This document shows positions 8,141-49,071 of a stretch of DNA of 64,000 bases, piece after piece. Every line of letters starts with the position of its first letter. Positions within the stretch are counted from its first letter, which is position 1. Both the position numbers and the translations under genes were made by a program. The notes beneath the pieces were generated by a model. The model did no database searches. It was not told the DNA's origin and saw nothing but the letters and a program-made list of their open reading frames with translations. This stretch comes from Histomonas meleagridis (lineage: Eukaryota > Parabasalia > Tritrichomonadida > Dientamoebidae), in assembly GCA_020186115.1 (NCBI GenBank), contig WSYJ01000063.1:1-64000 (forward strand). Direction: 5' to 3'.

Positions 8141-8195
8141 AACATATTATTTATTTGAAATTGTTGTTATTTGAAAGTAAACTTTATTCTTCGAA

Positions 8196-8280: not shown

Positions 8281-8281
8281 A

Positions 8282-9290: not shown

Positions 9291-9391
9291 ACCTAAAAAA
9301 AATAATTAAAATCTTTTATTTCGATTTTATTAAATTTAGGATAAAACATTTCCGTCCCCCCTATAATATTTGGTAATAATATAAACTATTT

Positions 9392-9553
9392 TGTGCTGCC
9401 CTTATTTTTGCATCTAGATATGGTTATAGAGAAATAGTTAAATTACTTCTTGAACAAGAAGTAAGTGATATCAATGCAAAGGATGTATATTTCACATATT
9501 ATGCGCTTGTTTTATGTTTTTTATGTTTCAAAATACAAATATTTTTGAGTTGA
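9392..9553 (+). pseudogene. Isolated ankyrin-module fragment
   Basis: This plus-strand remnant reads ALIFASRYGYREIVKLLLEQ followed by a SDINAKD end, one ankyrin module of the type found in the minus-strand arrays downstream. It is preceded by the same linker words (AATATTTGG) at about 9366-9373. It lies immediately after the mariner copy and in the opposite orientation to the arrays, so it is probably a rearranged piece. Confidence 0.6.
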
Positions 9554-10114
9554 CGACCGTTATGAGCAATTTTTTTTGGTGACGGTTGATGATCAAAATG
9601 AATTAGATATAAAAAATAAAGTATTCAATTCAAACTATCGGGCGACCGTTATGAGTAATTTCTTGTAATTTTTGCTAGGTAATATAATCTTGCTCAGGTA
9701 CCACTAACGTTCTACGCAATATGACAGCCTAGCAAAAATTATTTTTATTTTTAAACGTCCTCGAATAACGCTTATTTGAAAAATAAAATTTAAACCTGAC
9801 CCTCACCCCTAGTACACTTTATACTGATCACCTGTCTACGCCCTTTTATAAAAAAAGTGCTCCGCGGAGTCGGGCTACGGCAGGTTTGTGATAAATGCAC
9901 TCATTCGCCATTAGGGCTCTCTTTGGGGGAGGGGGGTACCTTGGTTTAAAAAAAAAAAAAAAAAAGAAAAAAGTTCTCAATTGCCCATAGAGTGAACAAA
10001 CTTTGTTATTATCACTTATGTGCTGAAAAAAAAAAAAAAAAAAAAAATTAACCAGAAAAACCGATAGAAAAAAGAAATTATCTTAAAATCAATTGAATGG
10101 TTTACATTTTACAA
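9554..10114. other. Gene-free stretch with repeats, a palindrome and homopolymers
   Basis: No gene was seen. A direct repeat CGACCGTTATGAG(C/T)AATTT occurs at 9554-9573 and 9643-9660. A perfect palindrome CTCCGCGGAG lies at 9860-9869, inside a locally GC-rich stretch (about 9790-9945) that stands out from the AT-rich surroundings. Two long A runs (about 9952-9969 and 10025-10047) follow. The GC-rich part resembles the hairpin zone near 8200 and may be an end of a virus-like element. Confidence 0.5.
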
Positions 10115-10748
10115 TTAAAAATTAAATGAATAATTAGAATTAGGAACAATTAAAACACTGGGTGCAGATACTTCAAAATTGGTTTCACGAATATAAAATA
10201 CAAGAGAATTATTAGATGTAAAAAAAACCAACTGTTCGATTATTAACTGATGGATAAGTAGTACCAAAATCATATAAATAATAATAATAAGTACCTGAAC
10301 TAGAAATAGATGATTGATGTAAATAATTGACATATATCTCAGTATATTCAGAATTGGGTTGATTAGGTTCAATTTGAATAATAACATAATAATGTGTTGG
10401 ATCTATTGTCTGATTTAAATTAGTGATATAAGTAAATTGTGATAATGAAATAAAACCAGGAATATCTGAAATAGATATAAAAGATATTGGTATAATAACC
10501 TTAATAGTAGATCCAATTTCATAAGCAATTCTTTTAGTACTAGAACCACCAGGATAATTAACAATGGTATCTTGAATAGTATAATCAGGAATCCTACCAT
10601 TGTTCTTAAGAACTTCATAAGCACGATCTAGATCATATTTAGTAAGAGGTGGATTAATAGGAGGTACCAACTTACGTTGTATAACACGTCCCTTATTACG
10701 TGAATAATAAGATTCACTAATAGGTCCAATACGATGTGGATCAAACAT
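10115..10748 (-). pseudogene. Hypothetical virus-like element protein, frameshifted near the C-terminus
   Basis: The frame starts MFDPHRIGPISESYYSRN and runs 178 codons. A run of eight A on the plus strand (10220-10227, T on the coding strand) then ends it early; one base fewer would continue about 30 codons to TAA at 10115. The body is beta-rich, with a Pro-rich N-terminus (VPPINPPL) and a Tyr/Ser-rich middle (HQSSISSSGTYYYYLYDFG). I do not recognise the family. Its composition and setting resemble a minor structural protein of a Maverick or virus-like element, which is inference only. Confidence 0.5.
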
Positions 10749-11214
10749 AAAAAATAACAGTAGGGAAAATTTTTTATTCTGTTATTTTTATGGGCAAACA
10801 GAAAACGATCATATTGTTATCAATTTTTTGTTAAATATTTAATCGTCTTATTTTTCAAAAAAATTGTACGTCTTGAAACCGTTTATTTGATTTCATTTGT
10901 GTGCTACACCAAATGTAAATTTTTCATTATAGTTGTTAAGTAAATTTTGATGATGCAAAGCAAAATCAAGTGTTGTCTTATAACTTACAGTAATATTGCA
11001 ATCTAAAATTTCTGATTTGATCTCATTGGCTTGAATTCGCTAGTGTTAATTTTATGCGTTTTATGATGATTTTTTTGATATAAGACACATATTTATGATG
11101 CCTAAATGAAAAGGCTCTCAACATGTTTCAAAAAAAAATTTCTAATAAAAATTAAAAACAAAATAAAGGATATGAAATATAAATTTTTATAAATTAAACG
11201 CATTTTTGAAGACA
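10749..11214. other. Gene-free AT-rich stretch
   Basis: No gene, RNA or repeat was recognised. A short inverted repeat (ATAACAG...CTGTTAT, about 10755-10790) lies just upstream of the preceding minus-strand gene and may belong to its promoter. An AAACCGTTTATTTG word at about 10877-10890 resembles the promoter word seen before core genes elsewhere in the window. Confidence 0.4.
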
Positions 11215-11283
11215 TAATTTTTTATAACATCTAGATTCTTTGAGTTAAATTTCTTTTTCGATTTTTTATTGTTTAAGTAATTT

Positions 11284-13990
11284 AACTATTTCTGTATGTC
11301 CATTTTCAGATGCATACATAAGTGCTGTTTTGAATATTTTAAATAATATCCAAATATTTTTTTGAAATATTCCAAAATTATTAAAATAAATATTAAATAA
11401 AACAAATAAATATTTTTAGCATTAATATCAATTCCTTCTTGTTCAAGAAGTAATTTAACTATTTCTGTATGACCTTTTGAAGATGCTTTTATAAGTGCTG
11501 TATTAAATGATTTAAATAATTTCCAAAATTTATTTTGAAATACTATAAAATAAAACAAATAAATATCCTTAGCATTAATATCAATTCCTTTATGCTCAAG
11601 CAGAAATTTAAATATTTCTATGTGTCCTTGCGAAGATTCAAGCACAAGTAAATTTCCAGATAATTTGAATTAATCATAAACAACACAACTAAACATGAAA
11701 TTAATAATTTAAATATTTGAAACATTCATGTCAATTCCTTCTTGTTCAAGAAGTAATTTAACTATTTCTGTATGACCTTTCCAAGATGCTAAAATAAGTG
11801 CTGTCCAAAATTATTTAAATAATTTCCAAATATTATTTTGAAATATAAAATTATTAAAATAAATTTCAAATAAAACAAATAAATATCTTTAGCATTAATA
11901 TCAATTCCTTCTTGTTCAAGAAGTAATTTAACTATTTCTATATGACCATTTTTAGATGCATAAATAAGTGCTGTTCTAAATAATTTAAATCATTTCCAAA
12001 TATTATTTTGAAATATAAAATTATTAAAATAAATTTCAAATAAAACAAATAAATATCTTTAGCATTAATATCAATTCCTTCTTGTTCAAGAAGTAATTTA
12101 ACTATTTCTGTATGACCTTCATAAGATGCATTCATAAGTGCTGTCCAAAATAATTTAAATAATTTCCTAATATTATTTTGATTTATCTTGTTTATTATTG
12201 ATATCGATTATATTATGTTCAAGAAGTAATCTAACTACTTCAATATGGCTAAATTCAGATGCAAAAAAAAGTGCCTTATCATTAATTTTAAATAATTTTC
12301 ATTTAATGTTTTGAAATATAAAATTAATGAAAAGAATAAATTTATCATTGTAATCTTTTCTATTTTTTTCAAGAAGCAATTTAACTACTTCAATCTTACC
12401 TTTTTGGGCTGCATAAGTAAGTGCTGTAAAATATTTTATTAAACATATTTTGAAAATATTTTTTACGAATATTAAATTATCAAAATTAATAGTGCTCGCA
12501 TAGATGTCAACTTCCTTTTTTTCAAGTAGTAATTTGACTATTTCTGTATGACCTTCTTCTGCTGCAAACATAAGTGCTGTTCTAAATAATTTAAATAATT
12601 ACCGAATATTATAATGAAATCCCAAATTATTAAAATAAATATTAAATAAAACAAATAAATGTCTTGAGCATTAATATCAATTCCTTCTTGTTCAAGAAGT
12701 AATTTAAATATTTCTATATTACCATTCCAAGATGCATATATAAGTGCTGTTCTAAATAATTTAAATAATTTCCAAATATTATTTTGAAATATAAAATAAC
12801 AAAAATAAATATCAAATAAAACAAATAAATACCTTTAACATTAATATCAATTCCTTCTTGTTCAAGAAGTAATTTAAATATTTCTATATGACCATTATAA
12901 GTTGTATACATAAGTGCTGTTTTAAATAATTATTTTAATTTCCAAATATTATTTTGAAATACTATAAAATTATTAAAATAAATATCTTTAGAATTAACAT
13001 CAATTCCTTCTTGTTCAAGAAGTAATTTAACTATTTCTGTATAACCTTTTACAGTTACCCATATAAGTGCTGTTTTAAATAATTTTTTTAATTTCCAAAT
13101 ATTATTTTGAAATTTCAAATAAATGAAATAAATAAATAATATTACAAATAAAAATCATGTTCATTAACATTTGTAACTCCTTTTTTAAGAAGAATTTTGA
13201 CTATATCGAGATATCCTTTCAAAGATGCCATAATAAGTGCAGATTGAAATGTTTTTTAACAATTTCCAAATACTATTTTGAAGTTCCAACATATTAAAAA
13301 TCAACTTTGTTCTTAATAAATAAATACCTTTAACATTGATATCTACATCTTTTTGTGCAAGAAGGAATTTTACGGTTTCTTTGTGATCATTTTCCAATGC
13401 AAATATAAGATTTGTGTTAAGTGCTATGAATATTTTCCATAAGCGTTTTAAAAATATTAAATTATTGTATTAAATATTGATACTAAGAAATAAACGCTTT
13501 TACTATTATTATCAATTCCTTTTTGTTCAATAAGTAATTTGACAATGTCTATATAACCATATTCAGATGCATACATAATTGCTGTTTTAAATTATTCGAA
13601 CAATTTCCAAATATTATTTTAAAACATCTAATTATCAAAATAAAAATAAAACAAAATAATTGAATATTTATAGTATTAATATTAAATCCTCCATGTTCAA
13701 CAAGTAATTTGATGACTTCAATATGATTGTTTTTAGAAGCTGTTATTAGTGCTATATCAAATTTTAGAAATAATTTCCAAATATTATTTAAAAATCCAAA
13801 ATCATCGAAAAAAATTTTAAACAAAACAAATTAATGTTTTTAATATTTAGATCAATTTTCTCTTGTTTAAGAAGTAATTTCACGATTTCATTATTTCCAT
13901 TTTCAGAAGCTCTAATAAGTGCTGTATTAAATATTTAGATTATATTCCAAATATAATTTTAAATCATCAAATTCATACAACATTTTTTAA
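11284..13990 (-). repeat. Ankyrin-module array 1 (17 modules, mostly 170-bp period)
   Basis: Minus-strand modules read TALIxASxxGHTEIVKLLLEQ followed by GIDINAKD, the trichomonad ankyrin type. Measured at the TAL codons, they stand at 11320, 11493, about 11646, 11796, 11966, 12136, 12269, 12419, 12572, 12742, 12912, 13065, 13235, 13406, 13577, 13747 and 13917. Spacings are 170 or 171 in nine cases, and 153, 150, 173 or 133 in the rest. Each module is joined by an AT-rich linker with the conserved plus-strand word CCAAATATTATTTTGAAA. In the 153-bp units the linker keeps the frame (FQNNIWKL); in 170-bp units about 17 bp are extra and the frame shifts. The array follows a broken DUF3447-type N-terminal region at 13991-15286. 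Confidence 0.85.
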
Positions 13991-15286
13991 AAGTACTAAA
14001 CACAATATCTTTTTTCATTGATATTTATATCTTTTTGTTCAAGAATATATTTTACTAGTTCGACATTATCAGAACAAGAAGAAAACACCAAAATATCTTT
14101 TGGAATTCGATTATTTTCAATCAAATGTTTAGCAAGATAAAAATTCCCAGTTTTTGCTGTTTCATTTATAAATGAATTATCAATTTGATTATCTTTTTTT
14201 TTTTTTTAAAAAATTTCATAATTCCCACTTTTAACACAAATGTCAATTATTTTATTAAAATTTTTTTCTCCAAATTTATTTGAAAAATTCGTGTAATTCA
14301 TTAATTGTGATTGATGTTCATCTTGAGAATCTTCATAAAAATATTTAAAAATATCATTTCGATGAAATTTAATTGCGACCTCAAATAAATCGTCAAATGA
14401 TGTGTGATTTTGTTCACATAAATGAATAATCTCTAAGTTTCCACCTGCAATAACATATTTACCAATATCATTTACATTAGCGCCATTCATAAGTAAAAAA
14501 TTTAAAACATTTTATAGCAGAAAAAAATGCTGCAAAACCAATTAATGAAACATTTTCTTGATTAATAAACGAGTATCTTTCATAAAGTGATGGTTCAATT
14601 GTTTGATTAAAATCAAAATCTTCTTGCGATGATATTTCTTGAAGTTTTTCAACATCATCGTTTCGAATTATTTTTGCAATTTCATTAGGATTAACTCCTT
14701 CTTTTACTAATTGTTTATGAAGTTCGAAATCATTATTTGAAAGTTTGGAATAACTATCATAAAATTTTCTAGAGAATGGATCATTTTGATTAAAATTTTT
14801 ATTTTCTAATTCTGTCTTATAATGAGCAAAATATTTAGATTGAATATTTGATGTAATATTTTCATTAATTAAATTTTCCATAATCATTCTTTCTATAAGA
14901 AAATATGCTTCTTGTGTTTCTATTTTAGAGATATATTTACCAAAGATATCAAATATTTTAATATTGTTTTTCTTTAATTCTTCTTCTTTCGATTGAATTG
15001 ATTTTAAATATTTAAAATATAAATCATAATCATTCCTTAGAGAAGAAAATGCTGTATATACTAATATACAAACAACAATATTAAATGAATATACATAATT
15101 AGGATCAAATATGTTCATTGCTTGATGAATTGATATATTGAAATTTTCTTCATTTAAGTTAAAAAATTATTTTTTCAAGTTCATTTAAAATTTGCATAAA
15201 GATGGTTTCAGCTTTAGAACATTCCACTTTATTTTCCAAATGATTTTCTGTCTGTGATGCATTGAATTTTGTTTCATTCTCGCACA
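13991..15286 (-). pseudogene. DUF3447-type ankyrin protein N-terminal region, broken by homopolymer frameshifts
   Basis: Three in-order pieces match the intact homologue at 32555-33781. The first starts about 15286 and reads to MQILNELEKIIF. The second runs from NLNEENFNIS to NVSLIGFAAFFSAIKCFKF. The third runs from LLMNGANV to KSGNYEIF, then ETAKTGNFYLAKHLIENN. Shared landmarks are YFAHYKTELENK, EIAKIIRNDDVEKLQEISSQ and SLYERYSFINQ. The breaks sit in T runs near 15167 and 14508 and in the long T run at 14194-14207 (A run on the coding strand), one extra base each in the first two. The family has a helical N-terminal domain followed by ankyrin repeats; its function is unknown. The pieces continue into array 1. 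Confidence 0.75.
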
Positions 15287-27114: not shown

Positions 27115-27679
27115 ATAAAAATAATAATAAGTTTTGGAATTACTTTTTTGAAATATTTTATTATTTTCCTTTTCGACTCGTCACAGCTAAGAACAAAAAT
27201 CGTCAAAACAAATTTGATAACTTCATATGTATAAGTTATTAATATTGAAATTAATGTTAACTAAATATTTTGACTTTTTATTTGTTGATAGATTTTTCTT
27301 GTCCCTTTATGTACATTCTTTTTGTGTTTGAAAAAATCTTCAAAAACTTAATAGTTAATCAACAAAAGGTAATTAAATTATCATTCTTTTCCCTATAAAT
27401 TTCATGCAAGATAAAATCACAGACTTCAATTAACTCAAAATATTCAAAACTTAATATCAGTAGGTGATAATAAAGATTATAAAGATGTTAGAAAAAATAT
27501 TCAACATCTAATTGAATCCAAGTATTACCTACTTTTTTAAGTTTTAATTAGAATTTTTATTTTATAATAATTGTTTTTTACTTATATACACAATTATATA
27601 ACATTAAGTTAATAAATGTGACAGTCTTTCTTAGATTTACCAAATAATTCAAATGAATTCTAAATATAATATTGAAAGA
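27115..27679. other. Gene-free AT-rich stretch
   Basis: No gene, RNA or structured repeat was recognised between VPS35L and the second ankyrin array. Confidence 0.4.
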
Positions 27680-30600
27680 TTATATCATTAAAATAGATTT
27701 TAAATTAAAGCAACAAATATTTTTACCTTTCATTTTAATGATATCCTGTTTGTCAAAAAGTTTTTCTATTTCTGTGTATCCGTTTTTAGCTGCACATAAA
27801 GGTGCTGTCATAAAAGATTTAAATAAAATCCAAATCTTATTCTGAAAAATCATTTTAATTAAATAAATATTAAGCAAAGTATATTAATATCTACAGCATA
27901 AATATCAATTCTTTCTTGCTCAAGAAGTAATTTAACTATGTCTATGTAACCATCTGCAGAAGCATACATTAGAGCTGTCCAAATTAATATATTTGAATAC
28001 CAAATAGTATTTTGAAATGAAAAAACATCAAAAGAGATATTAAATAAAACATTAAAATATTTCTAATATTTATTTCAATTCCTTCTTGCTCAAGAAGTAA
28101 TTTAACAATGTCTATATATCCATTTTTAGTTGCACATATAAGTGCCGTATTAAATAATTTACATAATTTCCAAATATATAATAAAAACATCAAATTAAGT
28201 AAATATATATTAAATTAAAAATATAAATGTCTTTAGCATTGATTTCGTTTTCTTCATTATTAAGTGGAAGTTCTTCAATTTCTGTTTCATAAGGTGTGAA
28301 TTTAAGTAGTGTATAAAATGCTTTAAATAAATCCCAAATATTTGTTTGAATTATTAAAAAAATTAATGAAAATATTATTATTAGTGCTAATTAAACTTTT
28401 CCGTCGTTCAATAAATAAATTGACTATTTCTATAAATCCTTTTTCAGCTGCTAAAATAAGTGCAGTTTTAAATGATTTTTATAATTTCCAAATAATATTT
28501 TGAATTATCAAATCATTTAAATATATATTAAATATAATGGATAAATATTTTTATCACTAATATCAATCCCTGAATATGCAAGAAGTAATTTGACCATTTC
28601 TGTGTTACCATTCAAGGATCCTATCATAAGTGCTGTGTTAAATGATAAAAATAATCACCAAATTATATATTGATATATCAATATTATAAAATAAATATCA
28701 AATAAAATATGTAAAAATTTTGAATATTAATATTTATTTCTTTTTGTTCAAGAAGTAATTTAAAGATTTCAATATTATTACTTTTTAAAGAATACATAAG
28801 TACTGTGTCAAATATATTAAATAATCTCCAAATATTATTTTGAAACGTCAAATAATTAATATGAATATTAAGTAAATTCAATAAATATTCTTTGCATTAA
28901 TATCAATTCCATCTTTTTCAAGAAGCAAATTAAATATATCGATTTTATTACTTTTCAAAGAGTACATAAGTACTGTGTCAAATATATTAAATAATCTCCA
29001 AATATTATTTTGAAACGTTAAATAATTAATATGAATATTAAGTAAATTCAATAAATATTCTTTGCATTAATATCAATCCCATCTTGTTCAAGAAGTAAAT
29101 TAAATATATCGATTTTATTACTTTTCAAAGAGTACATAAGTGGTGTATCAAATAGTTTAAATAATTTCCAATTATTAATATAAAATATTAAATAATTAAA
29201 ATCAATTTTAAACAAAATATTTCAATATCTTTTGCATTAATATCAATCCCATCTTGTTCAAGAAGTAAATTAAATATATCGATTTTATCATATTTCAAAG
29301 ATAACATAAGTACCGTATTAAATAATTTTAATAATCGTCAAATTATGCTTTGATACATTAAAATATTGAAACCAATTTTAAACAAAACATTCCAATATCT
29401 TTTGCATTAATATCAATACCATATTGTTTTAGAAGTTGCATAAATATTTTGAAATTATTATTTTTTAAAGATAATATAAGTGCTGTATCACAAAATTTAA
29501 ATGAATTCCAAATATTCTTTTGAAACATTAAATAATAGATATGAATATTAATTATATTTAGATAATATTTTTAGAATTAACATCAATCCCTTTTTGTTCA
29601 AGAAGTAATTTACTTATTTTATTTTTATTATTTTTTATTGATAATATAAGTGCTGTATCAAATAATTTGAATAATCACCAAATAACGCTTTGATACATAA
29701 AATAATAAAAATCAATTTTAAATAAAACAAATTAATATCTTTTGTATTAACATCAATACCTTCTTGTTCAAGAAGTAATTTAAACATATCAATTTTATAA
29801 GTTTTTAGAGATAATATAAGTGCTGAGTCAAATAGATTAAACAATTCATAAATATTATTTTGAAATATTGAATAAAAGGTATAAATATTAAACACAATTA
29901 ATTAATATTTTTCGAATTAATATCAATTCCTTTTTGATTAAGAAGCATTTTGAATATTTCAATTTTATAATTTTTTACTGATATTATAAGTGCTGTATCA
30001 AATAATCTTATGAATTTCTATTAATTATTTTAAAACATGAAATTGTAAAAATTGATTTTAAATCAAACAAATTAATATCTTTTGTATTGATATCAATACC
30101 TTCGTATTCAAGAAGTATTTTTGCTATATCAATTTTATTATTCTTTAAAGATAATATGAGTGCTGAGTTAAATAAATTAAATTTTTCCCAAATATTATTT
30201 TAAAATATCAAACAAAAAACACAAACACTAAATACAATCAATTAATATTTTTAGCATTAACATCAATTCCTTTTTGTTCAAGAAGCAATTTGAAAATTTC
30301 GATTTTATCATATTTTAAAGATAATATAAGAGGTGTATCAAATAATTTCAATAATTTCCAAATATTATTTCAAAATCTTCAACTATTAAAACCAATATTA
30401 AGTCAATCTAATAAATATTTTTGGAATTAATATCTAATCCTTTTTGTTCAAGAAGTAATTTTACTATATCTACACAACCATTTTTTATTGCTAATATAAG
30501 CGCAGTATCAAATAATTTAAATCATTTCTATATATTATTTTGAAATATTATTTAATTTAAATATACTTTGAATATTACATTTAAATTGTTTTTGTATTGA

Positions 30601-32554
30601 AATCAACTCCTTTTTGTTGAAGAAGCTGTTTAGCTCCATTTATAAAACCTGTTTTAGATGCAGATATTAGTGCTGTACAAAACAATTTAAATAATTTCCA
30701 TATATTTATATCAGATATCAAATTATATGAATAAATGTTAAATATGATAATTAAATATTTTGAGCATTTACATTAATACCTTCATGTTCAAGAAGTAATT
30801 TAATTATTTCTGCATGACCATTTTTTGCAGCTAAAATAAGTGCTGTATCAAATAAATCAAATAATTACCAAATGTTATTTTGATATTTGAAATTACAAAA
30901 ACCATCTTTAAATTAAATAATTAAAAGTTTTTAGTATTGACATCTATTCCTTTTTGTTCAAGGAGTAATTTAACTATTTCTGGATGACCATTTTCTGAAG
31001 CCAAAATAAGTGGTGTATTAAATAAATTAAATAATTACCAAATGTTATTTTGATATTCTAAATTCTTAATAGAAATAATAAAAAAACACTAAAAATATTT
31101 TTAATATTAATTTTAATATCTTCTTGTTCGAGGAGTATTTTAACTATTTCTGGATGACCATTTTTGGATGCTAGATTAAGAGATGAATCAAACAACTCAT
31201 ACAATTCCCAAACGTTGTTTTGAAACATCAAATTATATGTGTAAATGATAAATAAGATATTTCAATACTTTGTGCATTTATATCATTTACATCGTGTTCA
31301 AGAAATAGTTTAAATATTTCACTGTAACCATTTTCTGCAGCAACCATAAAAGCAATATAAAATATTTTGAGCAATTTCCAGATATTATTAGAAAACATGA
31401 AATATTTGAAATAAATTTTAAAGACTATAATTAAGTATTTTTAGCATTTGTATCAATATTTTTATGTTCAAGTAATAATCTAACGATTTCAGTGAGACCT
31501 TTCCTAATTGCATAAATAAGTGCGGAATCATATAAAATGATAAATTTCCAAATGTTATTTTTAGGGTTTAAATTTTTGAAATGAATATTAAAATCTATAA
31601 ATATATATCTTTAGTATTAATATTGATTCTTTCTTTTTTAATAAGCAATTTAATTATTTCTATATGACCTTTATTAATTGCATAAATTAGTGCTGATTTA
31701 AAAAATTTAAATAGTTTCCATATATCATTTTGATACTCGAAATAAATATAGTAGAAATTATAAAAAATAGATTTATATCTTTAAAATTAATATGAATTTC
31801 TTCATGTTTAAGGAGTAACGCAACTATATCTGTCATACCAAATTTAGACGCCCAAATAAGAGGTGTTCTAAACAAATTAAATAATTTCTAAATATTATAT
31901 TGATATTATATATCATTAAAATGAATATTAAATCTAAAAAACAAACGTCATAAATATTTACATTAATTCCTTCTTGTTCAAGGAGTAATTTCACAACTTT
32001 TTCTTGCATGTATGAAGTAGCGACTGTAAGTGCTGTATCAAATAATTTGATTATTTTCCAAAAGTTACTTTGAAGCCATAAATAACAAAAACCAATTTTA
32101 AAAAAATCAATAAAATATTTTTAGCAGCAAAATCAATTCTTTTGTCATTGACAAGTAATTTTACAATTTCTAAGTCACCATTTTGAGATGCAATTGTTAG
32201 TGCTGTATGAAAAAATTTTAATAATTTTTATTTGTTGTTTAAAAATGAAAGTTAAAAAGTAATACTAGATATATTAAATAAACGCCAACAATATTAATAT
32301 TCGTTTGATCATGCTCAAGAAATAACTTTACTAATTCAGAGTTACCTTTTGTAGATGCATAAATAAGTGGTGTATCATATATTATGAGTTATTTCCAAAT
32401 ATTATATTAAAATATTAAATTATACTAAAAAACTTTACTAACAAAACAAAACAAATATTTCTTATATTAACATTTATTTTTTTTTGTTGAAGTAGATATT
32501 TGACCATTTCTATTTGCCCAAATTCAGTTGCTATCATAAGTACTGTTTTAAATG
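27680..32554 (-). repeat. Ankyrin-module array 2 (29 modules; 23 at exact 170-bp period)
   Basis: Modules are marked at the TAL/TPL/TVL codons. They stand at 27798, 27970, 28140, 28304, 28458, then at every 170 bases from 28628 to 32198 without exception (22 modules), then 32365 and 32538. The ankyrin cores are diverged (for example LIYAIRKGLTEIVRLLLEHK, LTIASQNGDLEIVKLLVNDK, LIWASKFGMTDIVALLLKHE) yet free of stops where I translated them. Each is followed by an about 80-base AT-rich linker whose reading frame does not connect one module to the next. The conserved linker word CCAAATATTATTTTGAAA is shared with array 1. The array is directly downstream of the intact DUF3447-type gene at 32555-33781, and 170 is not divisible by three. 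Confidence 0.88.
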
Positions 32555-33781
32555 TTATGAATAATTATTGAAAATTATTATGAAATTTTGAATTATAAAA
32601 ACAAATTTTAAATAAAGTAATAAAATATTTTTCTCATTGATTTCAAATTGCTTTTGTTCCAAAATATAATTGAAAAGTTCAATATTTTCTGATTCAGCAA
32701 TATCAAAAAAGATATCTTTTGTAATTATACTTGCTTCATGATAATGTTTGATGATGAATATATTTCCAATTCTTGCAGATTCATGAATAGCAGATACAGT
32801 AATTATAATTCCTTCTTTAATCAAATAAATGAAGATTTCATAGTTATGATATGTAATACATGGCGCTGCTAATGAGTTAATATTAATTTTAATGATTTTA
32901 TTTTCATAAAGATATTTAAAGATATCATTTCGATGAAATTGAATTGCTGCTTCATAAGCATCTTTGAATGTTGAATGATTTTGTACGCATAAATGAATTA
33001 TTTCTGCATTTCCACCTGCAACTGCATATTTACCTGTGTTAGTTACATTAGCATTATTCATAAGTAAATATTTAAAACATTTAATTGATCCAAAAAATGC
33101 GGCATAATCAATTATTGTAACATTCTTTTGATTAATAAATGAACATCTTTCATAAAGTGATGGTTTTATTGTTTGATTAAAATTAAAATTTGTTTGTGAT
33201 GATATTTCTTGAAGTTTTTCCATTTCATCATTTCGAATTATTTTTGCTATTTCACCTGGATTAACTCCTTCTTCAATTAATTGCTTATGAAGTTCCCAAT
33301 CATTTTTTGAAAGTTCTTCATAATTTTTTAAAAAGATTTTTTCTATTTTAGTGAGACAATTTCTTTTATTTTCTATTTCTGTTTTATAATGCGCAAAATA
33401 ATGAGAAGAAATTTTTTTAGTAATATTTTCGTTAAGTAATTTTCGTTCAATCATTTTGTTAATTAAAAAATATGATTCCTGTGTGTTCTTGTCAAGTAAA
33501 AAAATTGTAAAAACATTCGAGATTTTATGTTCACTTTTGTGCATTTCTTCATATTTTTCAATTTCATTTATAAAATCCAATATCACATTTGAATCATTAA
33601 TTCCAATGGCATATGTATAATAAGCAATTTGACTAACAATTTGATTTAGAGAGTATGGATAATTATTATCAAAAATTTGCTTAATGATTGAATTCGCTGA
33701 TTGAGAAATATTTTCCACATTTAATCCATTAATAGTATTTTGTATTTGTTGGAGCATTTCGATATCATCTAGTGTTTCCAT
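32555..33781 (-). CDS. DUF3447-type ankyrin protein, intact N-terminal gene of array 2
   Basis: The 408-codon frame has no breaks. It has a helical N-terminal domain (METLDDIEMLQQIQNTINGL), then YFAHYKTEIENK, NDWELHKQLIEEGVNPGEIA, KIIRNDEMEKLQEISSQ and SLYERCSFINQKNVTIIDYA, then degenerate ankyrins (CFKYLLMNNANV, AVAGGNAEIIHLC, HRNDIFKYLYENK). The last module is ELFNYILEQKQFEINEKN. The final about 23 residues (ILLLYLKFVFIIQNF...) are linker sequence of the same kind that separates array 2 modules. This end is therefore probably not the true C-terminus if modules can be joined. The family is large in trichomonads and of unknown function. The gene is divergent from the TPR-like gene with 83 bp between the starts. 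Confidence 0.8.
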   Translation of the reverse strand: METLDDIEMLQQIQNTINGLNVENISQSANSIIKQIFDNNYPYSLNQIVSQIAYYTYAIGINDSNVILDFINEIEKYEEMHKSEHKISNVFTIFLLDKNTQESYFLINKMIERKLLNENITKKISSHYFAHYKTEIENKRNCLTKIEKIFLKNYEELSKNDWELHKQLIEEGVNPGEIAKIIRNDEMEKLQEISSQTNFNFNQTIKPSLYERCSFINQKNVTIIDYAAFFGSIKCFKYLLMNNANVTNTGKYAVAGGNAEIIHLCVQNHSTFKDAYEAAIQFHRNDIFKYLYENKIIKININSLAAPCITYHNYEIFIYLIKEGIIITVSAIHESARIGNIFIIKHYHEASIITKDIFFDIAESENIELFNYILEQKQFEINEKNILLLYLKFVFIIQNFIIIFNNYS

Positions 33782-37430: not shown

Positions 37431-37580
37431 TTTTTAATTGTGAAAAAATAATATTGTCAAAATAATTTCTTAAAAATTACTTTGGACAAATTTATTAACG
37501 GCTGCCTTAAATTTGAATATCGTAAAGTATTTAATACTATCTAAAAAAAAAGTAGATTCTAAAAAAAAATTTCATCCTTG
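37431..37580. promoter_or_regulatory. Divergent promoter of PP2A-A and Raptor
   Basis: The 150-bp gap has TTAACGGCTGCC (about 37494-37505), a version of the AACGG word, roughly midway. A TTCATCCTTG initiator-like word lies just before the Raptor ATG, and TTCACAAT on the other strand precedes PP2A-A. Confidence 0.5.
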
Positions 37581-40500
37581 ATGAGAAAAATTAATTTAGT
37601 AAACAAAATAATATCATCAGATGATAATTCTTCATTTTCTGATGGTATGTCTAGTGATGATTCTATAGAAAATTCTCTTCAAGAAGATGATACAATAGGC
37701 TTTGCTCCATCTTCTCCTTTTTATTATCTTTCAATGATGGAACATCTTAATAACATTGATTCAAGTGTTTCAGAACATAGTCAATTATCAGGGTTATGCG
37801 ACTTATCAGATGAAGATTATTATCTAGATCAAATGAACAAAAAATTTATTCCAACTCCAAAACCAACTCTCGAAGTCGTTCGATGTGCTGTTATAGTTTT
37901 TGCACATGCAATTTTTTATCCTAACATTCAATCGGAATATATGAAAAATAGCTCCCTATTTCTTTCATGGAGAGGCCTTCAATCCGATCATCCAAATGAA
38001 TATCCAATAGCTCTTCAAGGTTCATACAAAAATGAATATCTTCGACTTAGTCCAAAAATTCGGATTTTTCCTTTTATTTCTCCAAGTGTTGAAAAGATGA
38101 ACTCACTTAAATCTCTTCGTCGTGAAGTAACTCTCGGACGTGTTCTTTTTCATTTTGTCGGTTATGGATTTCCAACAGATTCTGATGATTCATTAATTTT
38201 CAATTCCAACACCGATAATCCATCACACTATACCCTTTCTAAATTATTTGAATCATTTTGTCAACCTTCTTGGTTCATTTTTGATTGTGATAATGCTGGT
38301 GCATATCTTAACGTTCTCCAGAAAACCGCCGAAAGTCAAAAAACCGTTTATCGGAATCCTTATCAAGATGATTGGTTTTGTTTTTGTGCTACATCGGCAG
38401 GAGAACAACTTCCACAGAATCGTTATCTCCCACGAGATTTTTTAACTACTTGTCTTTTTACACCTATACCAATTTCAATTTTATGTCATATTCTAAAATA
38501 TTACCAAACATCTTTTTCTTCACCAAACTTTCCATTATCAAAGATAGATGAGCTTTGGGAGTCATCTAATGAGGTTCAACTTGACATAGTTTTATCATCC
38601 ATTACAGGTGGAATAGCAGCAGATTATTTTCCAAGTGATAAATATCAATTATTTTTCCATCAAGACAATCTTACTTCTAACTTTTTTCGGCGGTTTATAT
38701 TAGCGCAATATTTATTATCATCATTTGAAGTATATCCAATTTCACATCCTTATATCCCTAATACGACGTCACATCCCTTATGGATGGAATGGGAGTTATC
38801 TTTAGATTTATGGGTTATGTCAACTATAGTTCCACGGCCAACATTTGCATCACAATTTTTTTCACGTTCATTGACAACAATGTCCGCGTTATTATCCACA
38901 CCTAAGTCACGCATAGATCAGTCATTATTATCCATCTTATTAGACTATCCATTATCAGGAATTGAAGGTGGTGATAAATCGTTTATATATTTAGTTGAAT
39001 ATTGTATTAAATTGCAAGAAAATCGGGAAAAAATTGCTTCAATTGTAATGTTTAATGATTTATTTTCTAAGTTAATAGCGCATGATTCTAATGACGAAGA
39101 ATATCAAGCATTATCATATTTAATATTATCATTATTACAACTTGATTTAAATTTTTCATATGAAATTCATAAAGATTTAAACTTAGCGATATTACCATCG
39201 TATATATTTGATGATAAGATCAATGAAATTACACGTGCGACATTAGCAGCGATATTAGCTTCGATTGTTAATGCAATAAAAACAATTCGTTTAACATGTG
39301 CATCATCTGAATTCATTACAGCAGTAAAAGATGCAGTACAAACAGCGAAGAATCCGATTTTAATATTATGGATGTTAATCTTATTAAAGCGCTCATTCTC
39401 AGTGTTATCAGCTGATTATTCTTTGTTTTATAATACTTCATCACATATACAAGTTTCGATTTGTATCTTTCATAAGGCATATGAAGTTCGAGCAGCAGTA
39501 TCATCAGCATTATCATGTTTTATGCAATCTACTGAATGTTTATCTAATTTCCAACTGATATTATTTGCTATTTCCGCATTTAATGATATGTCTTATTTAG
39601 TTCGATATCAATTATTACTTTTATTAATTCGATTTCTTTCAAGTGTTATAAATGTATCGACAATATTTATATTAAAAGAAGAACATTCATTTAATGAATT
39701 GTTTCATACTTGGTTTAAAACTAATCCGAAAACTATTGAAGAATATGCTAAAGCTGTTGATTCGATATCACATTTAGAAGATTCTTTTAATTATATTACA
39801 AGTATTGCAAAGTTTTTGATATTATATTTCTCATATGATCCACATCCTTCGATTAAAGATTTAGCGTCACGTGCATATAAACAATTCACACAAGAAGAAA
39901 CAAATGATATTCGAAACCATTCAATATCACCACCATTTATATCAATGGTTTTAGATAATGAAACATTTGAAGAAGATTTTAATGAGAAAATCGAAGACGA
40001 TTTCGAAAGTGATTCTGATGCATTATTTAATATTGCTATACGTCAATTTGTAAATTATCAACAAAAATCATTAAATGAAGAGAAGAATATTTCCGAATAT
40101 AATAATAAAAATAATAACAAAAAGTTATTACATAATGATATACCATTTGGTAATATCGAATTTCCAACAATTAAATTACAATTAGAAGCTGAAAGTAATT
40201 TTATTAATGAGCCAATAAAAATCATTAAATATGAACCAAATAATTTAATGTCAATTATTGCAACTAACAATGAAATTTATTCCATTAATGAAGATAATAC
40301 ATTTAATACTAAATATAAACTTAACAAAAACTCGGTAACTAGTGAATTAGAAATTATGAATTATCATAATGAAATCATTTCAATAATATCTACAAACGAT
40401 GGATGTTGTCATTTATGGAATCCATCACATAAGAACTTAAGTGTTACATGGCGATGTGACATTAATTATTTAAATGATAATTCCCCATTACATATAGCAG

Positions 40501-41090
40501 TATCATCTTTAAATAATAAAATCATCGCCGGTAGAGATTATAGTGCAATATCTTTATGGGATTTACCTTCACAACGTTTAATTAACGAATATAAGTTCGA
40601 AGAAAACCATAAAATTTCAACAATCGCTTCTTACCCGAATAATAATGAGTTATATGTCGTTGGTTATGATAATGGTATTGTTGATTTACTTGATATCCGT
40701 TGTGAGAATTCTCGTGTTTTAACTATATCTTTTGCTGAGAAAATTGCGTATATAAAAGGGAATAGAACTGGAGCTGATTTGTTATATATTGTAACTGAAT
40801 CAGGAAGAATAATAATGTGGAATAAGTCGGAAAATTACTTAAATTCTTTTACGTTAAATAATAATTTGAAAAATAAAATTCGTTACTTCGATACTCATTT
40901 CACATTCCCGTTGTTGGCTGTGATTAATTCGGAGAACGCACCAATAATAGCATCGGCTAAAAATGGTAAAGAGTTGTATAAGGTGAACGAATTGAACCAG
41001 AATTCAGTTGTCGCGTTTCACCCAATTTTACCAATGATATCTTTCGGAACTGAGGAAGGAAGAATTTTGTCTTATAATATCGTGCAATAA
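37581..41090 (+). CDS. Raptor, TORC1 subunit
   Basis: The 1169-residue protein has the Raptor layout. An N-terminal caspase-like (RNC) region (about 90-400) contains LGRVLFHFVGYGFP and WFIFDCDNAGAYL, counterparts of the family's LFHYNGHG and FVYDCSNAG. It continues with LPRDFLTTCLFTPIPISI and NFFRRFILAQYLLSSFEVYP. A HEAT-like middle (about 400-790) follows, then an acidic linker (about 790-850) and a C-terminal WD40 propeller (about 880-1169; e.g. CCHLWNPSHKNLSVTWR, AISLWDLPSQRL, GIVDLLDIR). Raptor selects substrates for the TOR kinase. The family's HG after the first strand is YG here. ATG 37581 is used; the preceding TTG is ignored. Confidence 0.87.
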   Translation: MRKINLVNKIISSDDNSSFSDGMSSDDSIENSLQEDDTIGFAPSSPFYYLSMMEHLNNIDSSVSEHSQLSGLCDLSDEDYYLDQMNKKFIPTPKPTLEVVRCAVIVFAHAIFYPNIQSEYMKNSSLFLSWRGLQSDHPNEYPIALQGSYKNEYLRLSPKIRIFPFISPSVEKMNSLKSLRREVTLGRVLFHFVGYGFPTDSDDSLIFNSNTDNPSHYTLSKLFESFCQPSWFIFDCDNAGAYLNVLQKTAESQKTVYRNPYQDDWFCFCATSAGEQLPQNRYLPRDFLTTCLFTPIPISILCHILKYYQTSFSSPNFPLSKIDELWESSNEVQLDIVLSSITGGIAADYFPSDKYQLFFHQDNLTSNFFRRFILAQYLLSSFEVYPISHPYIPNTTSHPLWMEWELSLDLWVMSTIVPRPTFASQFFSRSLTTMSALLSTPKSRIDQSLLSILLDYPLSGIEGGDKSFIYLVEYCIKLQENREKIASIVMFNDLFSKLIAHDSNDEEYQALSYLILSLLQLDLNFSYEIHKDLNLAILPSYIFDDKINEITRATLAAILASIVNAIKTIRLTCASSEFITAVKDAVQTAKNPILILWMLILLKRSFSVLSADYSLFYNTSSHIQVSICIFHKAYEVRAAVSSALSCFMQSTECLSNFQLILFAISAFNDMSYLVRYQLLLLLIRFLSSVINVSTIFILKEEHSFNELFHTWFKTNPKTIEEYAKAVDSISHLEDSFNYITSIAKFLILYFSYDPHPSIKDLASRAYKQFTQEETNDIRNHSISPPFISMVLDNETFEEDFNEKIEDDFESDSDALFNIAIRQFVNYQQKSLNEEKNISEYNNKNNNKKLLHNDIPFGNIEFPTIKLQLEAESNFINEPIKIIKYEPNNLMSIIATNNEIYSINEDNTFNTKYKLNKNSVTSELEIMNYHNEIISIISTNDGCCHLWNPSHKNLSVTWRCDINYLNDNSPLHIAVSSLNNKIIAGRDYSAISLWDLPSQRLINEYKFEENHKISTIASYPNNNELYVVGYDNGIVDLLDIRCENSRVLTISFAEKIAYIKGNRTGADLLYIVTESGRIIMWNKSENYLNSFTLNNNLKNKIRYFDTHFTFPLLAVINSENAPIIASAKNGKELYKVNELNQNSVVAFHPILPMISFGTEEGRILSYNIVQ

Positions 41091-44260: not shown

Positions 44261-44343
44261 TTTCCTTTAATCCTTAAAATAATATTTTATCTAAATAAAA
44301 TTATTGTTTCATCCAACCGTTATAAAACACGTTACGCTAATTG

Positions 44344-47300
44344 ATGAATTTTCGCAAACAACTCATTGCATGTGCACAAAGCAATGAGTTTTTGCTAAAC
44401 AATAAACCAATTGATTCACAAAAATATATTAAGCATACTCATATTCGAGCATATGCAAGAAACATTTTTAAATTTTTAGACTTAATGCCAAATTCATCAA
44501 ATGCAACAGTTGATTCTTACAAAGAATTAATGCAAAAAATAATACATTTTTTAATTCCTAAAGCGCCTGAAAAAATTATTTTACAAAACGTTGGTGCTGA
44601 TACAATTTTACATCTTAAAGAAGGTATTTCCTTTGAAGAATTTTTTTCGTGTATACTTCGATATGTTTCATTAACAATTCAATCACAAAAGGTTCAACCC
44701 ATAATTGATTCTTTATTTAAAATCTTAAATTTCTTAAATCCAATTTGTGATCCAAGCATTCCCATCAAAATAAGTTCAGACCAATATAAACTTCCACTTA
44801 CACATTGGTCAGCCTTTATTCAATCTATATCGAACATTCATCCATGTTTTATTATATCTGGAATCACTTCTCAAAGGACCAAATTATTCGAAAGAATTTT
44901 ATCTGAAGACACAGGGTGTTTATTATTAGATATTCCCACGTTAATTCAATGGCAATTTCGACCATCAATAATTAACGATATTCATCAAAAACTTCTTAAA
45001 GGTGGTTATTTAACATATGAGGAAACCAAATCGATAATAATTCAATGTGCAAAGGACCCAATTGCAAATTATCGTGGATGGATTATTCCATCATCATTTC
45101 ACAAATCCAATTTTGACTTTTCTACCTTATTTAATAGCTATAATGAATTTGAGCAGCGATGTTTTTGTATTGAATTAAATGCTTCTTTAGAAGATTTAAT
45201 CATAATTTCCAAAACACGGAAATTTGATATTGAAGAAGAGAAAATTATAACGAAAATAACAATTTCTCCAATGGAATTTTCGCAACGAGTTAAACGCCGA
45301 GAATTTATAGGGAAAGAAAAAGAAGATTATGTCGAAGAAGAAGAAGATTTATTACAATCGGATGATGAATATGATGAAGAAGATGAAGAAGAAATATTAC
45401 AATTATATACTCCTCCTAATTATGAAACTACAGAAGAACGATTCGATGAAACTAATGAAATAGATCCAGATGATGAAGAAACTAAGAAACGATTAATAAC
45501 TCTACCAGAAGAATCAGAGTCACAAATTATTAAAAAGTTTGAATATCATGAAAATGAGAAAAAAGAATTTAATTTCCAAAACATTACAAAGAAAATTATT
45601 ATTGATGCAACACAACCTTTAAAAGAGATGTCAAACATAGTATGTGATAAAGCATCGATTATTATTCCATGTATTTATCCAATGAAAAACAAAAGTGATA
45701 ATGAAGAAGAAGATATAAATGATAATGATGATGAAGTTAAATATTCGATAATTGGTGAAAAATGTTTAGTTTCATTAATCGATGATAAGAAAACTATTGA
45801 TGGAAATGAAGAATTCACTCTTAAATTTAATGGTTATACATTTTTGTTTGCGAATAATGAATATTTAGAAAGATTTGCTGGAAATCCACAAAAATATCTT
45901 TTGGAATTTTATCATTCTTATCATCATAAGATTCTTTTAATCGGTGGAAAAGTTTCTGGTAAGAAAACAATTCAAAAGAATTTGTCCGAATTCTTCGAAT
46001 CAGAAATTGTTGACTTCGAAACTTTAATCGAAGAAACGAAAAAACGAATTCCGAAGAAAAAAGAAGAAAATAGTGATAACAATTCTATGAATGAAGATGA
46101 TGAAAGTTATTCAAAAGATAATATTAACCTTATTAGTAATGACGAAAGCATTGATAACACTTCTAAAGGTAATTTCAGTGAACAAACTATTAATAGTTCC
46201 AAAGATAATATAAATATAAATGAAAATATTAATAATAGTTCTAAAGATAATATAAATATTAATAATAAATCGAAAGATGATTTTAATAGTAATGAAGAAA
46301 GTATCAGTAATAACTTCAAAAGTGAATCTGATGAAAATATTAAAATTGATACAGAAATAACTCATGAAGAAGAAGAAACGATTGAACTACAGCCAATATT
46401 TACTAATGGTTATATATCAATTGTTCCGACATTAGATGTTGAGCCATTAAAAGTGTTTAAAGAGAACGAATTACTTTCACCTGATATAATTATTATACTT
46501 GACATTGATTTAAGTAAAAAAGAAACAATAATTCAAAGACTTCCAAACATTACTCAAGCACAAGTTAATGAATTCATTAAAGAATATGAAACTTATAATG
46601 AAACGCTTAAAGATTTTATTGAAGATATTAAAACATTATCCATAAAAACGCAAGTTATTAATGGATTATTACCTATAGATGAAGTATTTTGGAATGCGGC
46701 ATATTCAATATGTCCATTATTACCACGTTGTAATGATGAATATGATGATGAACCTACCATTGGTTATCTCGGTACATATTGTCCAGTCACATTAAAGGAT
46801 AAAAACATATTACAAAGTGGTGATTTAACACTTGTATATGACGGATCACAATTTTCATTTTCTAATGAAGAAAATCAAGAACGATTTCGTAATGCGCCAC
46901 TTGCATTTATTAAACAAAGTATACCAAATGTACCACCGCCAAGAATATTAATAATTGGAACACGTGGCTCAAGTAAAACGTCAATTGCGAATGAAATTAG
47001 TCGCATTTATAATGTAAATGTATATGAATTTCCCGAAATTATCATAAATAATAATAATAATGAAGAAGAGGAAGAAGAAGAAGAAATGAATTTTGATGAT
47101 ATAACAAAGAAATTATTCGAACCATTTCTAAAACAAATTATTAATGAAACTAATAACCAAAGAAATGGTTGGATCATTGAAGGTACGCCTAAAAGTACTG
47201 TTGGCGCACAAATGATGATCGATTATGAGTTAAAACCTGATTTAGTGTTTGAACTTGAACAAAATGAACAATGGGCGTTAATGCGAAATCGAAAACGTCT

Positions 47301-49071
47301 TAATAATGATGAAGATATCTTAAATGAAGAATCAGAAGATCAAATTATAGTCCATGAATTCTCATCAATTATATCAGAAGAATCGAATAAAGGCGAACCA
47401 ATTATCATTGATACTTCACGTCGATTTACTTCTATCATGAAAATGATAAATAGAGTTTGTTTAAATGAACTTACATATCGTAAATCGTTATTTGTATCTC
47501 AAAGTTCGATTGAACTTAATGAAGATATTGAAACAATTTTTAATATGTTAAAAACTGGAAACGTTTTCATGTCACAATTCGGTCGTTATTGTCCAATATG
47601 TTTAAAAAAGAAAGGACAACTTATAATGACTGATTTAAGTATTTCTTGTAAATTTTTAAGTCGCATTTTCTTTTTCGAGACTAAAAAACATCAAGAAATA
47701 TTCATGAATGATCCACTTACATATGTCTTCCAAACAAAACCACCGAATTTCCCAATAGTACCAAAGATTTCTATTTTAGGGAATTCGGAGTTATGTTTAA
47801 GGTTATCGAAGATATTAAATACTGAATTAATACGACCACGTGATGTAATTACACGAGTTGTTAAACAACATACGCCATTAGGCATGAAAATACGTGAAAT
47901 TTTATCGAAAGGAAAAGCAATTGATTCGAATATATTTCGAATTGCTTTAAAGTCCGTTTTATTAAGACATGATTGTCAAATCAAAGGTTATATCATTGAT
48001 GGATATCCGACTAATGTTAATGAATTAAACTTAATGAAAAACGATGATATATTACCAACAGATTTAATATTTGCGAAAGATAACGAGAAATTAATCGAAT
48101 ATGCAATTGAAAATTATCATAATGTAATCCAATTAATGAATGAATCAACAATTTGGTTAATGACAATTCATGCGATCAACAAATTAAATGATAATATTCA
48201 ACAAAGATGGAAATCGATTTTAGCTATTGATGAAAAACGTCCTTATTGTGTATCAGCATTAAATATATCACCTGAAGAAGTATCGAATAATTTATCTAAA
48301 TTTAAACATTTTTGTCCTGTTTCTTATTCTGCTGATAATATTTATGTCTCATCGATTAAAAACGATTGGGAAAACATTGTTAAATATAATGGAAATTATT
48401 ATCATTTAATATCATCTGAATATAAAAACGATTTTTTAATATCGCCAATTCCATTTATATATAATTGGTCGAAAAATGACATCAAATTTACAAATATTAA
48501 AAATATCAAGAACGAAAATGTTTTCGAATTACAAATCGATGGTTATGATGTAGTCGAATTATCAAAAGGGAATTTCGTGAAAGGTTTAAATGGGATTTTC
48601 GCCGAATATGAATCGAAATTGTTTTTGTTTAGTTCCGAAGTTAATCGTAATGAATTTTGTTATAACGTTTCGAGATATTTAAAGGTGAAATTACCCGAAA
48701 ATAGACCCGTCGAAGTGCCCAAATCTTTGATGCAAGTCTCATCAATGCCAACAGTCGCATATTTGGAGCAAAGTGTTGGCGACGTAATAACTGAATGCAT
48801 TGTAAAAATGACTTTGATGAGACCGAAAATTCCAAATATGTCATTAAGGAAATCATTAAATGAATTCGTGGCAACTTATATTAAGGCAAATGTTAAGGAT
48901 AGAGGAGATTTACTACACGAAAAATTCGAAAGAAATTTGATGAAATTAATCGAAAAAGTGGAATTGGCTGAGAAGTTAAAGAAATCTTTAGAGACACCAA
49001 TGGAAATGCGAGATGAAGAAGAACATGAAAGGCTTTGTAAGTTATGGAATGATATTCAACATAAGAAATAA
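44344..49071 (+). CDS. Multidomain adenylate-kinase-like protein, AK9 type
   Basis: The 1575-residue protein has four adenylate-kinase-like modules. The first (about 165-255) is degenerate (GITSQRTKLFERILS, then GWIIPSS). The others have P-loop-like strands KILLIGGKVSGKKTI (about 533), RILIIGTRGSSKTSIA (about 870) and KISILGNSELCLRLS (about 1145), with GWIIEGTPKS and GYIIDGYPTN lid/core partners. The YCPVTLK(D)...GDLTLVYDGSQFSF segment is repeated (YSIIGEKCLVSL, YLGTYCPVTL, QFGRYCPICL, KHFCPVSY), as in AK9. Only the second and third strands keep a Gly/Lys P-loop, so most modules are probably not catalytic. Acidic and Asn/Ser-rich linkers (340-400, 575-690) separate them. AK9 proteins are associated with cilia. 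ATG 44344 is used. Confidence 0.78.
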   Translation: MNFRKQLIACAQSNEFLLNNKPIDSQKYIKHTHIRAYARNIFKFLDLMPNSSNATVDSYKELMQKIIHFLIPKAPEKIILQNVGADTILHLKEGISFEEFFSCILRYVSLTIQSQKVQPIIDSLFKILNFLNPICDPSIPIKISSDQYKLPLTHWSAFIQSISNIHPCFIISGITSQRTKLFERILSEDTGCLLLDIPTLIQWQFRPSIINDIHQKLLKGGYLTYEETKSIIIQCAKDPIANYRGWIIPSSFHKSNFDFSTLFNSYNEFEQRCFCIELNASLEDLIIISKTRKFDIEEEKIITKITISPMEFSQRVKRREFIGKEKEDYVEEEEDLLQSDDEYDEEDEEEILQLYTPPNYETTEERFDETNEIDPDDEETKKRLITLPEESESQIIKKFEYHENEKKEFNFQNITKKIIIDATQPLKEMSNIVCDKASIIIPCIYPMKNKSDNEEEDINDNDDEVKYSIIGEKCLVSLIDDKKTIDGNEEFTLKFNGYTFLFANNEYLERFAGNPQKYLLEFYHSYHHKILLIGGKVSGKKTIQKNLSEFFESEIVDFETLIEETKKRIPKKKEENSDNNSMNEDDESYSKDNINLISNDESIDNTSKGNFSEQTINSSKDNININENINNSSKDNININNKSKDDFNSNEESISNNFKSESDENIKIDTEITHEEEETIELQPIFTNGYISIVPTLDVEPLKVFKENELLSPDIIIILDIDLSKKETIIQRLPNITQAQVNEFIKEYETYNETLKDFIEDIKTLSIKTQVINGLLPIDEVFWNAAYSICPLLPRCNDEYDDEPTIGYLGTYCPVTLKDKNILQSGDLTLVYDGSQFSFSNEENQERFRNAPLAFIKQSIPNVPPPRILIIGTRGSSKTSIANEISRIYNVNVYEFPEIIINNNNNEEEEEEEEMNFDDITKKLFEPFLKQIINETNNQRNGWIIEGTPKSTVGAQMMIDYELKPDLVFELEQNEQWALMRNRKRLNNDEDILNEESEDQIIVHEFSSIISEESNKGEPIIIDTSRRFTSIMKMINRVCLNELTYRKSLFVSQSSIELNEDIETIFNMLKTGNVFMSQFGRYCPICLKKKGQLIMTDLSISCKFLSRIFFFETKKHQEIFMNDPLTYVFQTKPPNFPIVPKISILGNSELCLRLSKILNTELIRPRDVITRVVKQHTPLGMKIREILSKGKAIDSNIFRIALKSVLLRHDCQIKGYIIDGYPTNVNELNLMKNDDILPTDLIFAKDNEKLIEYAIENYHNVIQLMNESTIWLMTIHAINKLNDNIQQRWKSILAIDEKRPYCVSALNISPEEVSNNLSKFKHFCPVSYSADNIYVSSIKNDWENIVKYNGNYYHLISSEYKNDFLISPIPFIYNWSKNDIKFTNIKNIKNENVFELQIDGYDVVELSKGNFVKGLNGIFAEYESKLFLFSSEVNRNEFCYNVSRYLKVKLPENRPVEVPKSLMQVSSMPTVAYLEQSVGDVITECIVKMTLMRPKIPNMSLRKSLNEFVATYIKANVKDRGDLLHEKFERNLMKLIEKVELAEKLKKSLETPMEMRDEEEHERLCKLWNDIQHKK

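Follow-up and report, generated by a model that had tools for sequence, protein, structure and literature searches.

Ankyrin modules of Histomonas meleagridis held out of phase by spacers that are predicted to leave the RNA

Trichomonad spliceosomal introns and the nonconventional introns of euglenids are the described systems closest to the spacers that part the modules of an ankyrin array in the poultry parasite Histomonas meleagridis, found in a 64,000-nucleotide (nt) stretch of contig WSYJ01000063.1 (the window). T. vaginalis is reported to have 63 active introns, of types A and B, with GT/AG borders, an extended 5′ motif and an ACTAA fused to the 3′ end, and some of its ankyrin genes carry introns (PMC12316389). 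The spacers resemble these introns in being non-coding, in interrupting genes and in occurring in the same phylum (PMC12316389), but most of them lack the edge GT, the CTAAY and the AG, and they are estimated to number in the thousands. Euglenid nonconventional introns are, like the spacers, without GT-AG borders (PMC4770533, PMC6221363); they start with a purine, end with a pyrimidine and have paired ends (PMC4770533). The published H. meleagridis genome (43 Mb, 28% guanine–cytosine (GC) content, ~11,100 genes) is annotated as intron-poor, with 573–638 introns and a maximum of one per gene, and ankyrin is not mentioned in its main text (PMC8529796). Intron poverty is described for related species as well: in T. 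musculus, introns occur in 5.66% of genes; in T. foetus, 87.4% of genes are monoexonic. Within the open-licence full text of PubMed Central, to which the search was confined, neither such arrays nor introns in Histomonas ankyrin genes were found to be described.

Here we suggest that the window array belongs, as a single gene, to a very large family in Histomonas, and that its modules are probably exons of 31–33 codons parted by 71–77-nt phase-0 introns that lack GT-AG borders and would be removed from the RNA. The module cores, together with the codon before their TAL anchor, show the signature of translated sequence, each core in its own frame, and the spacers do not. Because these protein-selected cores sit in frames that could not otherwise be connected, a step of removal or skipping is invoked, for which removal at the RNA level would be the simplest form.

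The window array and its family

The minus-strand array comprises, in the in-register reading, 23 modules whose 22 intervals are each exactly 170 nt (coordinates count from the first letter of the window; Table 1). A first-pass annotation of the window had reported this period and noted that, 170 not being a multiple of three, consecutive modules are out of phase; both points hold, as does its description of the modules as free of stops, with 23 of 23 open across the 30 codons displayed. Its TAL or TPL anchor is not present in every module: TVL, SAL, SSL and IAF also occur. The intact N-terminal gene that it placed upstream corresponds to exon 1, which begins with an ATG and matches DUF3447 (E 2.8e-12). 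The final ~30 codons of exon 1 are already module-like, closing ...INEKN ahead of spacer 1, into which the mechanical open reading frame (ORF) continues to a stop at 32555; spacer 1 is non-coding and lacks GT-AG, and its borders were set by the stop-avoidance rule given below. Two of three single modules tested matched Pfam PF00023 (profile positions 4–32 and 4–29 of 33), and the divergent 29316 module gave no Pfam hit. The array is old: the mean pairwise identity of 22 units in a gap-free alignment is 67% in the cores and 66% in the spacers.

Genome-wide searches covered 43,276,120 bases in 121 contigs and counted exact matches only, with common words possibly skipped. A 24-mer of the core had 1,554 copies and its reversed control none. 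Twenty stretches (L numbers) fetched around exact 24-mer matches were pooled with the window, giving 21 stretches and a sample that leans, because of this choice, towards young arrays. A DNA profile recovered 305 cores from the pool, mostly within 28 arrays of at least three cores, one of them with 28. Scaling the 1,554 exact matches by the 92/305 pooled cores or the 7/52 window cores that carry the 24-mer gives an estimated ~5,000–11,500 modules in the genome. Among 264 near-complete cores, 244 are intact, 8 have indels of 3n, 4 contain stops and 8 have other indels. By one degenerate pattern, there were no relatives in viral and prokaryote contigs.

The arrays have gene-like ends. In 18 of the 28, an ORF of at least 290 amino acids lies on the same strand within 350 nt upstream (292–437 codons, measured stop to stop; one is cut by its stretch), and DUF3447 was found in all seven intact upstream ORFs chosen for Pfam, one of them slightly below the curated cut-off. 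At the other end, the last module in 17 of 26 evaluable arrays stays in frame up to a stop and has no spacer after it (for example, TALMIANGKGYDKIVDLLSK-stop); two further arrays are cut by the fetched stretch. End counts were read by eye from printed output and upstream-ORF counts were made by hand; the same pair of genes is present in L016 and in L017, and the four arrays concerned all entered the counts. In these two stretches (C1:828–857 kb), two ankyrin genes are seemingly duplicated in opposite orientation ~20 kb apart, with one copy of exon 1 broken. The arrays of L022 (~4781–4900) and L025 (~5186–5330, both in the coding sense) break off mid-spacer, where both give way to one and the same unrelated sequence; this may mark a breakpoint of insertion or recombination.

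We take DUF3447/ankyrin proteins to be a family known from trichomonads, and these have the same N-terminal domain followed by ankyrin repeats as the Histomonas array genes. Other ankyrin genes with contiguous repeats in one ORF are plentiful in the same genome (for example, of 500, 903 and 1,237 amino acids), from which the array genes differ in having a spacer after nearly every repeat. Their predicted plan is exon 1, carrying the DUF3447/ankyrin ORF, then many similar exons of 31–33 codons and a stop-bearing last exon. Each module exon would encode a single ankyrin repeat that starts with the variable codon ahead of TAL and extends through ...INAKD, such that the spacer would fall at the β-turn of the repeat (the 'xxG' place).

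The period is exact within the regular array of the window but not across the family: 182 of 263 spacings in the 21 stretches are 170 nt, and the others range from 127 to 190 nt, including 18 of 153 nt. Other arrays use periods of 150, 153, 156, 173 and 190 nt, and the nucleosome spacing raised by the annotation is therefore not supported as a general rule. The 81 spacings other than 170 nt fall into all three residue classes modulo 3 (38, 19 and 24 for residues 0, 1 and 2), and spacer length is therefore not set by the reading frame. Tandem duplication of a single unit, made up of an exon and its spacer, accounts best for the 170-nt period. An added length constraint on the window array is hinted at, because its 22 intervals are unchanged despite ~34% spacer divergence, whereas lengths vary freely in L013, another diverged array. 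In the 171-nt units of L025, length changes of one base coincide with runs of A or T on the exon border or close to it, and could be homopolymer errors of long reads.

Stop avoidance and variable codons

Stops were counted against the expectation from the composition of each alignment column, with columns treated as independent; near-duplicates were thinned, the remaining copies still being related, and the core count used gapless cores only (183 after thinning of 244). Core codons 0–28 contain 2 stops in 5,307 codons, compared with 91.4 expected, in support of the selection on protein that the first-pass annotation had read from the window. Avoidance begins at the 3′ end of the spacer: the codon directly before TAL has no stops in 160 (13.0 expected; P 1.4e-6), whereas spacer codons −3, −4 and −7 have 16, 20 and 17 against expectations of 15.6, 22.7 and 16.8. 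Genome-wide, the triplet NNN between an exact 26-nt 3′ element of the spacer and the ACAGC of the core was never a stop among the 100 of 1,039 matches listed, with 6.5 expected. On the 3′ side of the module, codon 28 has no stops (3.5 expected), codons 29 and 30 are uninformative, and stops are found at codons 31 and 32 (10 and 12; 16.0 and 15.8 expected). We infer that each module is translated over 31–33 codons, with the 71–77-nt spacer excluded.

The same modules vary at a few codons. Across 1,268 pairs of 170-nt units differing at 3–14% of sites, the DIVERSIFYING codons show changes that alter the amino acid in a far larger share of pairs than silent ones: 0.83 versus 0.03 for the codon before TAL, 0.81 versus 0.01 for codon 4, 0.82 versus 0.004 for codon 7 and 0.63 versus 0.006 for codon 8. 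A weaker excess is seen at codons 3, 10, 11, 27 and 29, and at framework codons (L2 and I13, for example) the changes are mainly silent. Codons −1, 7 and 8, among the four most variable, presumably correspond to positions 5, 13 and 14 randomised in designed ankyrin repeat proteins (DARPins), and we assume that variable codons 3, 4, 10, 11 and 27 lie outside the randomised set. In DARPin libraries, surface positions are randomised (PMC8683736), whereas the Histomonas family is natural. Its hypervariable codons hint at a large repertoire of putative binders.

Spacers, their signals and alternative explanations

The spacers are AT-rich. Their commonest form starts with ATTTATTTGTTTTATTT and ends with TTTCAAAATAATATTTGGAAATTATTTAAATTATTT (...ATTATTT) directly ahead of the variable codon, and the 3′ element is the best-conserved part in most comparisons. 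This element is largely confined to the array genes: the exact 26-nt form has 1,169 copies in the genome, 1,039 of which are followed by NNN ACAGC. With a profile of this element, 14 of 252 matches in the sampled DNA had no recognised core after them, several being last modules or array ends. By a strict pattern, core-to-core junctions genome-wide include 1,197 with a gap of 71–101 nt and none with a gap of 3–30 nt. L010 and L014 have a second form of spacer, which consists of ~20-nt repeats. A 20-bp tandem repeat, ATATGTTTTAATAATTTGGA, lies at window positions 54679–54776, and nearly the same repeat is the spacer between modules of the minus-strand array in L010. This suggests that the common spacer originated from ~20-bp units, with which changes in length by −17, −20 and +20 agree.

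Compared with euglenid introns, 89% of 95 Histomonas spacers start with a purine and 97% end with a pyrimidine, and the full euglenid pattern (Y/R ... Y/RA) agrees in 92%, 89%, 97%, 78% and 80% of them at its successive positions, much of which composition alone could give. The diagnostic pairs between +4..+6 and −8..−6 form in just 10.5%, and the best fixed 4-bp end helix forms in 46% versus 42% with swapped partners. The two ends of a spacer thus pair with each other no more readily than after swapping of partners, which sets the spacers apart from this class.

The first-pass annotation had listed unconventional splicing or excision, a donor array and constrained DNA spacing as options, and the first of these leads: stop avoidance sets in at the spacer 3′ end, stop-bearing last modules are frequent and most spacers are without canonical splice signals. 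That ordinary GT-AG introns have been overlooked, with sites inside the cores or spanning several modules, seems unlikely to us. The genome does have canonical-looking introns and standard U2 and U6, and GT is found at unit positions 84–99 in 160 of 263 units, as ATTTG/TTT. However, the spacer starts ATTTATTTG-like after a D or N codon, and the one GT that is common sits 8 nt deeper into it, with the G replaced by A in 31% of 116 units; of 263 units, 45 have AG in their final 16 nt (counting the variable codon), 28 have both GT and AG, and 10 have CTAAY. Skipping of whole modules is not expected either, because cores avoid stops all along the arrays. A similarly unlikely reading is an untranslated donor or relic array, in which expression would be limited to exon 1 and the modules would serve for recombination into expressed genes. 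Very high copy number, extreme variation at some codons and short or broken upstream ORFs in 10 of 28 arrays would suit it, but the modules avoid stops, carry 3n indels and finish in stop-bearing copies, and the strict pattern revealed no spacer-free recipient genome-wide. With 244 of 264 cores intact and array ends resembling those of genes, this option of the first-pass annotation is not supported. A silent-cassette donor array does not fit either, as the copies are neither free of constraint nor without gene ends of their own.

Translational bypassing is known in phage T4 and fungal mitochondria. Ribosomes hopping every spacer on an unspliced mRNA would make splice sites unnecessary, but we consider this very improbable: close to 30 serial hops of more than 70 nt would be needed in the window gene, the commonest codons at the two edges (ATT at codon 30 and TTT at codon −2) are no matched take-off and landing pair, and the spacers show no structure. 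Slightly less credible still are spacers translated by frameshift or read-through, or in frame in the 153-nt modules. In two of three frames, 36 and 58 of 109 spacers are open; of the 38 spacers that lie in frame, 15 are open; and 10 stops occur across 17 distinct units of 153 nt, for which 16.2 are expected. However, stops occur near the composition rate at codons −3, −4 and −7, spacer lengths are independent of frame and, by hand count among the matches listed, 28 of 41 two-repeat matches with a 153-type span contain stops. Least probable of all, in our view, is excision at the DNA level, in the manner of internal eliminated sequences, to yield a spacer-free expressed copy. AT-richness and nearly fixed size would agree with it, but there are no spacer-free junctions by the strict pattern, and excision between two copies of ATATTT, the only frame-keeping direct repeat noticed, leaves many stops.

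Several observations weigh against removal of the spacers as phase-0 introns or blur their borders. Stops are fewer than expected at spacer codons 39 (16 versus 29.6), 35 (9 versus 19.4), −8 (20 versus 31.6) and −19 (6 versus 12.3), a deficit that we ascribe to relatedness of the copies because stops are still common there. Upstream ORFs are shorter or broken in the 10 arrays mentioned, and neither of two shorter ORFs in the window, of which one precedes the second array and the other lies in the 56-kb region, matched Pfam. Nine of the 26 evaluable arrays do not reach a stop as described, six breaking off or decaying and three being uncertain. A protein profile found two same-ORF core pairs 28–45 residues apart in the sampled DNA: the one in L050 is free of a spacer and has three turn residues (NRG) at the usual spacer site, and the one in L010 is an irregular direct junction. 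Cutting exactly at the stop-avoidance borders would leave each repeat short of 1–3 turn residues, which the L050 junction has. The most diverged spacers retain no strong 5′ motif; no consensus RNA fold emerged over 56 spacers (mean z −0.08 versus shuffled for 40 of them); and duplexes between a spacer's own ends (−0.52/−2.65/−3.73 kcal at 12/20/25 nt) are matched by those between swapped ends (−0.43/−2.82/−3.70).

On balance, we favour a mechanism in which spacers would leave the RNA as phase-0 introns without GT, branch site or AG. Repeats could then be duplicated, shuffled or skipped in frame, because every exon would be of phase 0; free duplication of such symmetric exons would yield long ankyrin chains, whose surface-type residues would diversify fast. 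We raise more tentatively, as a possibility that we would not yet back, that this is a second RNA-removal system serving one family, with thousands of spacers, and that the ankyrin receptors form a natural combinatorial repertoire of binders; the excised spacers would in that case have no signal in common with the GT-AG introns of Histomonas. Should the spacers be removed, ~2–4.5% of the genome (roughly estimated) would be misread, and a very large family would have its real proteins missing from gene catalogues and from the databases used in proteomics. An intron class would then also be seen to spread in the absence of GT-AG signals, which are considered indispensable, beside ordinary-looking U2 and U6.

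Ordinary introns, feature coordinates and other genes

Candidate ordinary introns of the form GTATGT...TTCTAAC...AG, 22–25 nt long, gave 12 genome matches compared with 6 in a reversed control, and several sit between long open frames. One in L037 divides a protein kinase domain (profile positions 3–62 and 69–263); this canonical-looking intron inside a kinase domain indicates that the genome has ordinary introns of another kind. Introns of 25 nt with this pattern are found at L037:1500–1527, in the kinase gene, and at L034:1499–1526, in a PH-kinase gene, and ~10 of the 12 genome-wide matches look alike. The T. vaginalis 3′ motif ACTAACACACAG was discarded as a probe, with 3 genome-wide matches versus 2 in the reversed control, and a broad GT...CTAAC...AG pattern was swamped (56 versus 254 in the control). 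U2 is present in two standard-looking copies with GTAGTA, and U6 in one standard-looking copy with ACAGAGA that scores 43.7 bits (cut-off 44).

Table 1 Features of the arrays in the window, with putative exon and spacer borders
Feature	Positions	Strand	Remarks
Exon 1	32627..33781	-	ATG at 33781; DUF3447/ankyrin-like region
Spacer 1	32550..32626	-	77 nt if cut at codon borders; ATTTTATT follows N codon
Module exon 2	32457..32549	-	93 nt, phase 0; each border +/- up to 3 nt
Module exon 3	32284..32376	-	173 nt and 167 nt to its neighbours, the intervals closest to exon 1
Regular array	28377..32209	-	23 modules (first base of TAL codons 32206, 32036 ... 28636, 28466), period exactly 170; unit of one 31-33-codon ankyrin exon and one 71-77-nt spacer
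Module core	30757..30846	-	alone matches Pfam Ank, profile 4-32 of 33, E 2.5e-9
Three extra modules	27719..28151	-	array runs on below 28466, down to ~27.8 kb; TAL codons near 28148, 27978, 27808; one degenerate module precedes
Possible short final exon with stop	27610..27642	-	weak; counted as uncertain
Second array, same family	11266..14100	-	18 cores; mixed 170/153/150/172 spacing; last module ends KLLKQ-stop

The ORFs upstream of the second array are broken, and the one of 213 amino acids had no Pfam match when tested. The window has a GC content of 27.8%. Elsewhere in it, a Raptor-like protein with a Raptor_N caspase-like region and WD40 is encoded at 37578–41090 on the plus strand, a protein of 1,576 amino acids with two adenylate-kinase/AAA-like regions at 44341–49071, also on the plus strand, and a protein with a DDE_3 transposase domain and a Myb DNA-binding domain at 58075–58980 on the minus strand.

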